Shown here piece after piece: positions 45,519 through 50,320 of a stretch of 64,000 nucleotides of DNA. The position numbers and the translations under genes were made by a program. Positions within the stretch are counted from its first letter, which is position 1; every line of letters starts with the position of its first letter. Origin of the DNA: Spongiibacter tropicus DSM 19543 (GTDB lineage: Bacteria; Pseudomonadota; Gammaproteobacteria; Pseudomonadales; Spongiibacteraceae); the NCBI RefSeq assembly GCF_000420325.1, contig NZ_ATUS01000001.1, forward strand, positions 872,463-936,462. Direction: 5' to 3'. Under the pieces are notes generated by a model. It ran no database searches, was not told where the DNA came from, and saw only the letters and a program-made list of their open reading frames with translations.

Positions 45519-46796
45519 ATGAACGTTTTGATTATTGGCAACGGCGGTCGCGAACACGCCCTGGCATGGAAAGCGGCGCAGTCTGCAAATGTTGAAACCG
45601 TCTATGTCGCACCGGGCAATGCGGGCACCGCGCTGGACCAGGGCATCGAGAATGTCGACATCGCCGTCAGCGACTTTGCCGCTCTCGCCGACTTCGCCAG
45701 CAACAACAATGTCGGCCTGACCATCGTCGGCCCCGAAGCACCGCTGGTTGACGGTGTGGTCGACTACTTCAGCGAACGCCAGCTACCCTGCTTCGGCCCC
45801 AGCAAAGGCGCCGCGCAACTGGAAGGCTCCAAGGCTTTCACCAAGGATTTTCTCGCCCGCCACGCAATTCCCACGGCGGCCTATGCCAATTTCACTGAGC
45901 TGGAACCCGCTCTGGCCTACCTCCGCGAACAAGGCGCGCCCATCGTAGTGAAAGCCGACGGTCTGGCGGCCGGTAAAGGCGTGATTGTGGCCGAGACACT
46001 GGAGCAGGCAGAAGAAGCCGTGCGCGACATGCTGTCGGGCAATGCCTTTGGCGACGCCGGTTGCCGCGTGGTGATTGAAGAATTTCTGCAAGGCGAAGAA
46101 GCCAGCTTTATTGTGATGGTCGACGGCGAGAATGTGCTGCCCATGGCCACCAGCCAGGATCACAAGCGCGTCGGCGACGGCGACACCGGACCAAACACCG
46201 GCGGCATGGGCGCCTACTCGCCCGCCCCCGTGGTGACCGATGCCGTACACCAACGCATTATGAACGAAGTGATTCTGCCCACCGTGCGCGGCATGGAGCA
46301 GGAAGGCAACCGCTACACCGGCTTTCTCTACGCGGGCCTGATGATCAACCCCGCGGGCGAGCCCAAAGTCATCGAGTACAACTGCCGCTTTGGCGACCCG
46401 GAAACCCAGCCCATTATGCTGCGCCTGCAGTCGGATCTGGTTGAACTTTGCCTGACCGCTCTGCGCGGCGAGCTGGATAGCGCCGACGCTAGCTGGGACC
46501 CTCGCCCTGCCGTGGGTGTGGTCATGGCCGCGGGCGGCTATCCCGCCAGCTATGACAAAGGCGATGAGATTACCGGCATTCCAGCAGAAACCGGCAGCAG
46601 TAAAGTCTTCCACGCGGGCACCAGCCTGCAGGATGGCAAACTGGTCACCAGTGGTGGTCGCGTATTGTGCGCCACGGCAATGGGCGACCGGGTGAGCGAT
46701 GCCCAGGCGCTTGCCTACCAGCTTGTTGACCAGATACAGTGGCGTGGAGCCTTTTGTCGCCGCGATATTGCCTACCGCGCTATCGCCCGCGAATAA
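45519..46796 (+). CDS. purD: phosphoribosylamine-glycine ligase
   Basis: This 425-residue ATP-grasp enzyme begins MNVLIIGNGGREHALAWK. The ATP-binding segment is IVVKADGLAAGKGVIVAE (about 143). The metal-binding end is EYNCRFGDPETQPIM (about 288), and DHKRVGDGDTGPNTGGMGAYSPAP is a GARS hallmark. It joins glycine to phosphoribosylamine in purine synthesis. AGGAC lies 11 bases before ATG 45519. The next gene starts 28 bases after its stop. Confidence 0.97.
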   Translation: MNVLIIGNGGREHALAWKAAQSANVETVYVAPGNAGTALDQGIENVDIAVSDFAALADFASNNNVGLTIVGPEAPLVDGVVDYFSERQLPCFGPSKGAAQLEGSKAFTKDFLARHAIPTAAYANFTELEPALAYLREQGAPIVVKADGLAAGKGVIVAETLEQAEEAVRDMLSGNAFGDAGCRVVIEEFLQGEEASFIVMVDGENVLPMATSQDHKRVGDGDTGPNTGGMGAYSPAPVVTDAVHQRIMNEVILPTVRGMEQEGNRYTGFLYAGLMINPAGEPKVIEYNCRFGDPETQPIMLRLQSDLVELCLTALRGELDSADASWDPRPAVGVVMAAGGYPASYDKGDEITGIPAETGSSKVFHAGTSLQDGKLVTSGGRVLCATAMGDRVSDAQALAYQLVDQIQWRGAFCRRDIAYRAIARE

Positions 46797-46824: not shown

Positions 46825-49638
46825 ATGTGCAGGATGCCCGGCGTGCGCAACTCCGTGTCAATGCTGCCCGCGGGCAGCCTGCTCTGGCTGATTCTACTCA
46901 GCCTGTTCAGCGCTCGCCTCGGGGCTGCCCCGCTGCTGCTCGATGAGCGGCAGGATCGGCTCGATCTTTCCCATTATGCCCAGGTCCTCGAGGACCGCAG
47001 CGGCGACTGGCAAATTGCGGATGTCGACAACCGCGGCCTGCAACGCAGTTTCCGTCCGGTCGAAAACGGCGATCTGCATCTGGACAAGCGGGTGCAGCGC
47101 TACTGGTTTCGTTTCAGCCTGAGAAATATCAGCGGCGAGCCAAGCAAGCGGATTTTTGAAATCCGTCCCGCCTACCTCGGCGATATCACCGTATACGCCC
47201 GTAGCAGCAACGACTCGGGAACGGCAAGCCAACTCATCCCCGCGCTCCCGAAAGAGGAGATGTTGCGCCCACAGAATGTGATGGCGCTGACCGTGCCGCC
47301 ACACAGCGACCTGCACGTCTTCGTCCTTGTCGAGAACCACGGTGACTACCGCAGCAGTATCGGTCTGTATCAGCAATCTGAATTCTTCTGGCTGAGTAGC
47401 TATTACGACGCCTTTAACGCGCTGATGCTGGGGATTCTCTGCAGCATTCTGATGTACTGCGTGATTGCCTTTGTCGTCTACAAAGAGCCCCTGTTCATCA
47501 ACCAGGTCGCGTTCTGCATCCTGGTGGCGCTCTCCCAGCTCACTTCCTGGGGGTATATCCAATTCCCCCTGATCACGCCCTCGCCGATGAGCCCCACCAT
47601 GCTGGCGTTCACCCTGGCGATTCTGCTGACCGAGGTCATCTTCGCCCAGCGTTTTCCTATTTACAGCGGCGTTGCCGCAAGCCTATGGAAAAAACTGTTC
47701 CGGCTGCTCACCGCGCTGCTCATTCTCGGCATCGTATTGTCGCCGCTGCTGCAGGGACTGTATGTCGTCATTACACTGTCGCTGGTAATGCCGATCATCA
47801 TGCTGTCGCTGATTGTTGCCGCCATCAATGGCTTTTTTGTCAGCACCAGTCGCCTGCTGTTTTACTACCTGCTGGCAACCGCCGCACTATTGGCCTCCTA
47901 CCTCACCGCCCTGCTCGCCTTCTTCCTGGGCCTTATCGATATCTACGAACTCAATCTGGCGTTTGCGGTGATCGCGGTAGCCAGTGCCGCCAGCCGGATT
48001 GCGCTGTTGATCGCCCGCACCCGCAAACGCTGGCACAAGCAATATCAGGAAGCACAGCGTGTCGCAGTTGTCGGCGAGGTGAACCGCGCCAAAAGCGATA
48101 TTCTGTCGCGCATTACCCACGAGATTCGTACGCCAATCAGTGCCATCGTCGGGGTAACCGAGCTGCTGGAGGACAGCAGCAGCCTGACCACTGCGCAAGA
48201 GGAATACCTCCGCAGCCTGCAACGCTCCAGTCACGAACTGCTGCAATTGCTGGAAGAGGCGGGACAGGCCGCGCGATTCAGCGACAGCGACATGGAGCTG
48301 CGCAGTCAGATCATGTCATTCCCGGAGCTGGTGGGCGATGCTCTGGCGGGTTTCCGTAATCTGGCCGCGGAGCGAGATCTGGAGCTGATCGCCGACATTT
48401 CACCGGAGCTGCCCTCGCAACTGCTCGGCGACCCGTCCCGAATTCGCCAGCTGCTGATTCACAGCGTCAACAGTGCATTCGAGCACAGTGAAAACGGCTT
48501 TATTCTGCTGAAGATTCACCCCGCCTCGCCCCGCCCGGGGCACATCCATATTGAAGTCTCGCATCGCGGACGCCCCTTTGACGCCGAAGAGCGCCAAGCG
48601 CTTTATCCCGCGAAACAGGAGCTTCACGAGAACAATGTGTTGAGCACCCGCTTTGCCATTATCTCGCGACTGGTATCACTGATGCGGGGACAGATCAGTG
48701 TCCGCAGCGCGGGAAACCGCGACCTCCACACCCTGTGCATGTCGATCCAGTTGAATGTGGCCAGTGACAGGTCCCTGAGCGAGCACAGCGTGGCCCTGCT
48801 CAGCGGCAAGCGCCTGCTGGTCGTGGACAGCAATAAAACCTTTTGCGAAGTCATCAACAAACAGTGCAGTGCCTGGGGCATGACTGTCTTTTCTGCGGCC
48901 AGTGAGCAGGCGGCCATCGCCATTTTGCGCAACCAGCGACTGTTGCAGGCCCCGCTGGACTTCATACTGATCGATCACCGGCAACCCGAGAACGGCCTGC
49001 ACCTCGCCCACCGCATCGCCGAGGAAAACAAGGACGCCGCCGATCACCCCAGCATTCTGCTGTTGGCTCATGCCAATATCGACTACGATCAGGACGTTCT
49101 CCGTCAGGCGCGGGTACAGAAAGTGTTGAGCAAGCCGCTGGCTTCCTCCGCGCTGCGCAGCGCCCTGCTCGGCGAGTCGCGCTTCAATGCGAGCAACCCG
49201 AATCGCCAGATCGACCCGCAGACCGACTACAGCGATGCGGCGACGAAAACGCTGCAGTGCCTGATTGCCGAGGATAATCCCAGCAATGCGCTGGTGCTGA
49301 AGCGGATGCTCAGTAACCTGGAGATTGAGGTACAGCACGCCGAGAACGGTCAGCAGGCCTTGAATCAGTTCCTGCGCACGCAGTTCGACCTGGTGATTCT
49401 CGATATCGAAATGCCGGTCATGGATGGTTTGGAAACGGCCCGCCAGATGCGTCACTTTGAGAACGAAGAGGGACGGCGACGCACGCCCATTTTCGGTCTC
49501 AGCGCCAATGCTCTGGATGAACAACGCGACAATTACCTGAACTCCGGGATCGATCTTCATTTGGTGAAACCCATCCGGCAATGGGAGCTGGCAGAAGCCA
49601 TCCAGCGCTGGACCGGCTACACGCATCACAAGTCTTGA
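46825..49638 (+). CDS. retS: RetS-like hybrid sensor histidine kinase with degenerate ATP-binding domain
   Basis: I set the start at ATG 46825 (GGGA 4 bases upstream), giving 937 residues; the frame is open further back into purD. The order is: signal peptide (about 15-35), 7TMR-DISMED2 sensor (about 40-185), 7TM domain (about 190-400), HisKA with phospho-acceptor His432 ([15 protein letters not shown]), HATPase-like domain, receiver 1 (Asp717 in LIDHRQP) and receiver 2 (Asp860 in [10 protein letters not shown]). This is the layout of Pseudomonas RetS, also encoded after purD, which inhibits GacS. The ATPase boxes are lost: the N-box reads [11 protein letters not shown]1 reads SHRGRPF and G2 reads VLSTRF. 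Confidence 0.88.
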
Positions 49639-49672
49639 GTTTGACGTACAATGGCTAGAGATGGAGGCCATT

Positions 49673-50320
49673 ATGCAACGTAGTTTTTCTGCCATAGACC
49701 GGCTGCTGATGGGCGCCGACCGCAGTCTGAAAACACTGGTGCGCGGCAGCGCCACAGCACAGCGCCGCAACCCGTCGGGCGACTATCGCGACAACAGCGA
49801 AGGGCGCGAGGAACAGGCCCGCCGCCACAGCGCCGGACTGATGCGCATCAATCACACCGGCGAAGTTTGCGCTCAGGCGCTGTATCAGGGGCAGGCGCTC
49901 ACAGCACGTCGCAGCGATGTCAAAGAAGCCATGAGTCATGCAGCGGATGAGGAAGTCGATCATCTGGCGTGGTGCGAAGATCGCTTGCGCGAGCTGGGCA
50001 GCCGTCCCAGCCACCTGAACCCGCTGTTTTACGCTGGCGCATTCGCCATCGGCGCGACCGCTGGCGCGATCAGCGACAAGATCAGTCTGGGGTTTGTGGC
50101 AGCGACAGAAGATCAGGTTTGCGAGCACCTGCGTGAACACTTGCACACGCTGCCCAGCGACGATGAGAAGTCTCGGGCGATTCTGGAGCAGATGCTAGAA
50201 GACGAGGCCGCTCACGCAACTCAGGCTCTCGAGGCAGGCGGCGCCGTTTTCCCGCGACCGGTGAAGACACTCATGACCCTGATGTCCAAGGTCATGACCA
50301 AAACCACGTATCACCTCTGA
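49673..50320 (+). CDS. coq7: Coq7-type demethoxyubiquinone hydroxylase
   Basis: ATG 49673 follows GGAGG by 5 bases; an ATG at 49661 lies within the ribosome site. The 215-residue di-iron carboxylate protein has [22 protein letters not shown] (first Glu/His ligands) and [19 protein letters not shown] (second set). Further ligands lie in the C-terminal [10 protein letters not shown]. It hydroxylates the ubiquinone ring late in its synthesis at the inner membrane. It follows the RetS-like gene by 34 bases and converges with a VOC gene. Confidence 0.95.

Follow-up and report, generated by a model that had tools for sequence, protein, structure and literature searches.

The gene at positions 46825..49638 (+ strand) of the 64,000-nucleotide stretch of Spongiibacter tropicus DSM 19543 DNA analysed here (the window) encodes a retS-type hybrid histidine (pseudo)kinase of 937 aa that has lost its ATP-binding boxes and kept its phospho-sites. 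It is very probable that this protein is a membrane-bound hybrid histidine pseudokinase and represents RetS in its genus, and the most likely reading by analogy is that it does not signal on its own but holds back a partner kinase, GacS. The pseudokinase mode is already known from Pseudomonas aeruginosa RetS: in the part of Francis et al. (2018, PMC5992135) available to us, that protein is described as having a degenerate HATPase domain and no autophosphorylation, and as inhibiting GacS by draining phosphate to its second receiver (REC2), by an HExxT phosphatase activity and by blocking GacS autophosphorylation. The new element is a family-wide comparison of ATP-box loss in RetS proteins linked to purD or coq7; a literature search confined to papers outside subscription access found no paper surveying how ATP boxes have been lost in the different RetS families.

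The open frame begins at 46699 and corresponds to 979 aa, and the start at 46825 gives the 937-aa product; an MCRMP-like peptide near the start is also found in two congeners (L111, L112). On the 5' side lies a gene which we take to be purD (45519..46796, +) and on the 3' side one which we take to be coq7 (49661..50320, +), both names coming from reading of the sequence and recall. The gene order is purH, purD, the retS-type gene and coq7, and the frames farther upstream of purH are, on the same footing, presumably accC, prmA, dusB and fis.

The architecture of RetS is present in Pfam searches: a 7TMR-DISMED2 sensor domain (residues 50-176; 46972..47352, +; PF07696, E 2.8e-15), a 7TMR-DISM 7TM region (residues 196-387; 47410..47985, +; PF07695), a HisKA or DHp domain (residues 422-478; 48088..48258, +; PF00512), a degenerate HATPase_c domain (residues 535-630; 48427..48714, +; PF02518, 27.2 bits against a cut-off of 26.4) and two receivers, REC1 (about residues 660-778; 48802..49158, +) and REC2 (residues 813-927; 49261..49605, +). 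The 7TM region scores 24 bits, under the 29-bit cut-off, yet other RetS proteins match over the full length, and the intact 7TMR-DISM sensor of the original prediction is upheld. So is its intact His432, since H432-E433-I-R-T436 (48118..48132, +), within HEIRTP, forms the phospho-acceptor His plus the HExxT phosphatase motif. The further claim that both receivers are intact is right for REC2 (E816, D817, D860, S893 and K915) and slightly too strong for REC1, which retains D668, D717 and K770 and is weakened by a Ser (S669) at the second acidic position. H432, T436, D717 and D860 are present in all 18 RetS-bearing genomes of the genus. In HExxT the acidic position holds Glu in the S. tropicus protein and Asp in the 17 other genomes, and Asp for Glu in this motif is usually tolerated. 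The second acidic position of REC1 is not Asp in 16 of the 18 genomes, S. tropicus being one of them, and this loss within the genus adds to the protein a second decay (48802-49158) that has drawn less notice.

Alignment with the genome's own GacS located the three nucleotide-binding boxes. The N-box Asn is replaced by Ser (S550; 48472..48474, +); the G1 position reads SHRGRPF (residues 579-585; 48559..48579, +) instead of DxGxG, with H580, G582 and P584 in the D.G.G columns; and the G2 position reads NVLSTRFAI (residues 604-612; 48634..48660, +), with no glycine and with V, S and R in the three glycine columns. These are the three changes that had been predicted from the sequence. No D.G.G, D.G or G.G was found anywhere in residues 481-660, so a canonical box has not been shifted elsewhere, the possibility that the prediction had offered as its own test. 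The protein lacks the N, G1 and G2 boxes of an active hybrid kinase and has the degenerate HATPase domain without G boxes that the accessible text of PMC5992135 gives as a feature of RetS. Among the 27 HisKA matches in the genome it is alone in lacking both G1 and G2; the other 26 served as a control, and a G2-like motif was found in each of them and D.G.G in 25, which argues that the loss is neither chance nor a genome-wide habit. Within the genus, the G1 Asp is absent from 18 of 18 proteins (His stands there in every one), as are the G2 glycine pair and any other G2 glycine, and the N-box Asn remains in 7 of 18. An AlphaFold2 model of the kinase core alone had a mean pLDDT of 42 and was set aside.

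The assignment to RetS draws on both homology and gene neighbourhood. Kinase-core crystal chains of P. aeruginosa RetS (7n0e_B and 6dk7_A), the solved relatives that inform most, match the protein in the PDB with E about 4e-29 to 7e-29, and the kinase cores are 33% identical. The distances from the phospho-acceptor His to the HExxT Thr, the REC1 Asp and the REC2 Asp are +4, +285 and +428, compared with +4, +289 and +434 in P. aeruginosa RetS, whose His position, 424, was deduced from the HExxT motif. By this register T436, D717 (48973..48975, +) and D860 (49402..49404, +) are the counterparts of T428, D713 and D858, the last being the phosphate sink according to the available P. aeruginosa account. 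Of the family's 21 genomes, 18 have a full-length protein of this kind, the 17 relatives being 36-57% identical to the S. tropicus protein; all 18 genomes belong to one genus, and in the three genomes of the family's other genus no RetS match was found at E<=1e-60 (0/3). In the 18 genomes the gene invariably has purD upstream and coq7 downstream.

A profile built from 13 RetS-type proteins was run against 390 genomes of the order, and its matches together with the 18 genus proteins gave 94 usable proteins (95 loci were chosen and 94 counted, L238 having no matching frame; the additional G006 kinase L128 was excluded). Of the full-length top matches nearly all were used, at one per genome; G245 and G325 are among those omitted. 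In 71 of the 94, purD or coq7 lies within the stretch read, and these proteins come from 13 families of the order, among them the family closest to P. aeruginosa; in the Pseudomonas-like family (f21), 15 of 17 are linked to purD or coq7 within the stretch read. In one linked family the kinase cores reach 88% identity with the P. aeruginosa RetS fragment (L195). The conserved linkage and these cores place the S. tropicus protein under RetS, and the orthology first proposed from its position beside purD is supported by sequence comparison. Among named relatives, a single scan of genome contigs gave generic hybrid kinases only (best local identity 43%), none of which was used, and the matches in a plasmid collection were likewise all generic hybrid kinases, each covering less than 80% of the protein.

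Across the 71 linked RetS proteins the ATP site is the part most often given up. The N-box Asn and the G1 Asp each survive in 32, the full D.G.G in nine and the last two G2 glycines in six; the N-box Asn, D.G.G and the G2 pair are all kept in four, and the N-box Asn, G1 Asp and G2 pair are all gone in 30. The phospho-sites of the same proteins are nearly constant: the REC2 Asp is present in all 71, the REC1 Asp in 70, the His in 69 and the HxxxT Thr in 63. A tree was made from 51 of the 94 proteins by a quick search with the ATP-domain columns left out, and it has some long branches (L251, L227 and L188). On this tree the G1 Asp changed at least four times (three rows without a parsed H-box being uncounted), and the union of the box-less proteins of f1+f29 and f43 in one clade was rejected (AU p 0.0005, for groups chosen after the tree had been seen). 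Intact boxes beside purD occur in three members of f28 and one of f4, and these members suggest that the RetS ancestor was active, the count of changes alone being unable to separate loss from gain. HxxxT and REC2 are kept in f1, f29 and f43, and f34 is without the Thr. Two further pairs of proteins depart from the common pattern. L233 and L236 (f30 g31), lying between purD and coq7, have lost the phospho-acceptor His and kept REC2. The purD-linked L228 and L231 (f2 g3) are without the HExxT Thr, and their REC2 has T/Q for the acid pair and Leu for the Lys; they are possibly pure binders at most. That RetS began as a working kinase beside purD, that the use of ATP was lost repeatedly and independently, and that lineages now keep different subsets of the tools for inhibiting GacS is a history to which we give an even chance.

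A full-length GacS (L154; C5:252800-255502) was found when gacS was sought in the genome, as the original prediction had recommended. It matches the BarA/GacS model with 675 bits (the model's own cut-off is 890), and it has intact boxes (NAIKF, DSGIG and GTGLGL) and an HPt-like HGLKG. All 18 genomes of the genus have a GacS at E<=1e-150 with canonical boxes, and the HPt motif was recognized in 17 by the pattern used; RetS and GacS co-occur in 18 of 18. A GacA candidate (C4:128916-129554) scores 269 bits against a cut-off of 280, the next match scoring 73, and the genome contains three CsrA genes. In the other genus, a GacS-type kinase (E 1e-118 to 1e-125) occurs in all three genomes, with no RetS match at the threshold given above, so GacS does not need RetS. 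In the order, a GacS-type match was found in 20 of 21 RetS-bearing genomes and in 4 of 12 others, a contrast that we do not interpret because nine of the 12 were picked for zero RetS-profile matches and that profile recognizes further hybrid kinases too, GacS among them.

The simplest reading, by analogy, is that the same mechanism operates in this genus as in P. aeruginosa. The periplasmic DISMED2 domain and the 7TM region would sense a signal, and the DHp domain would pair with GacS, while the ATP-binding domain, presumably unable to bind or use ATP, would be kept folded as a surface for regulation. D860 of REC2 could take over phosphate from the GacS histidine, lowering GacS output; the GacS receiver could be dephosphorylated through HExxT (T436); and autophosphorylation of GacS would be blocked in the heterodimer with RetS. 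GacA activity would be lowered as a result and CsrA/RsmA freed. The retention of T436 and D860 and the published mode of P. aeruginosa RetS, as far as the accessible text describes it, support the earlier proposal of a protein without autokinase activity that binds or drains a partner kinase. All of these biochemical steps are carried over from P. aeruginosa; the residues, the synteny, the GacS, GacA and CsrA genes and the purifying selection were observed directly.

The ATP domain may be dead as an ATP site, but it is not free to drift. Within the genus REC2 and DHp have the highest mean pairwise identities (0.78 and 0.74); REC1 (0.59) and the ATP domain (0.54) come next, and the sensor is lowest (0.37). 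The dN/dS ratio is far under 1 in all domains giving usable values; for the ATP domain the four unsaturated pairs of eight gave 0.011, 0.066, 0.045 and 0.076, the other four being saturated. The "dead" domain is constrained by purifying selection, which would be in keeping with a surface that still has a regulatory or binding role. The same constraint could be read as a sign of unorthodox nucleotide binding, with weak kinase or nucleotide-gated activity retained, and one G1 glycine and the N-box Asn of 7 of the 18 genomes would fit; against this stand the G1 His in 18 of 18, the lack of any G2 glycine in 18 of 18 and the loss of other box subsets by RetS proteins of other families, and we regard such activity as very unlikely. 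The loss of three ATP boxes might also be taken for the decay of a gene without function, a reading that is hardly credible given a full-length frame in 18 of 18 genomes, the low dN/dS and the retention of all phospho-sites.

There is a small chance that the protein is a general phosphate sink and that, in place of GacS, a different hybrid kinase or a histidine phosphotransferase is its partner. The genome offers 26 other HisKA matches, and in P. syringae, according to the part of the literature at hand, RetS-dependent control of the T3SS is independent of GacS. Two observations speak for GacS instead: conservation within the genus is highest in DHp and REC2, and each of the 18 genomes has a GacS.

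Kinase-inhibiting RetS-type pseudokinases would on the main reading extend past the Pseudomonas family. For this the gene neighbourhood is an independent line of evidence, and it carries purD- or coq7-linked RetS into 13 families of the order. The residue most often kept is the phosphate-sink Asp of REC2 and the part let go is the ATP site, which agrees with the in vivo weight given to the phosphate drain in the accessible published account. The family supplies natural variants for separating the three inhibition mechanisms and, if the tool subsets do differ by lineage, would amount to a natural dissection of the mechanism of inhibition.

The closest known system is P. aeruginosa RetS, which shares a homologous kinase core, the purD neighbourhood (in the Pseudomonas-like family), the H, HExxT and two receiver Asp residues at near-equal spacing and a degenerate ATP domain. 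It differs in its boxes, where the N-box Asn survives in DNAFK, the G1 Asp-x-Gly in DSGHP and a part of G2 in LGSHLGL, whereas in the S. tropicus protein the N-box Asn, the G1 Asp and all G2 glycines are gone, REC1 is short of one acidic residue and coq7 adjoins. The weakened REC1 fits the dispensability of D713 reported in the available P. aeruginosa account; the same weakening is unseen in the Pseudomonas-like family, so the use of REC1 may differ. A second DISM-7TM hybrid kinase of the genome (G000:C1:1587108-1587704; L001, L018) has canonical boxes and a long tail past the receiver, and LadS was considered for it. The architecture of DivL of Caulobacter crescentus differs from that of RetS, and its structure (4q20) is a weak PDB match to the protein. 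As described in the sources at hand, DivL is likewise a kinase-like regulator of another kinase whose own ATPase domain is not needed, but its partner, CckA, is stimulated by it, whereas RetS inhibits its partner. LadS of P. aeruginosa is, on the same partial accounts, a hybrid kinase that also acts on GacS; unlike the protein described here, which is without the boxes for it, LadS autophosphorylates and feeds phosphate to GacS.
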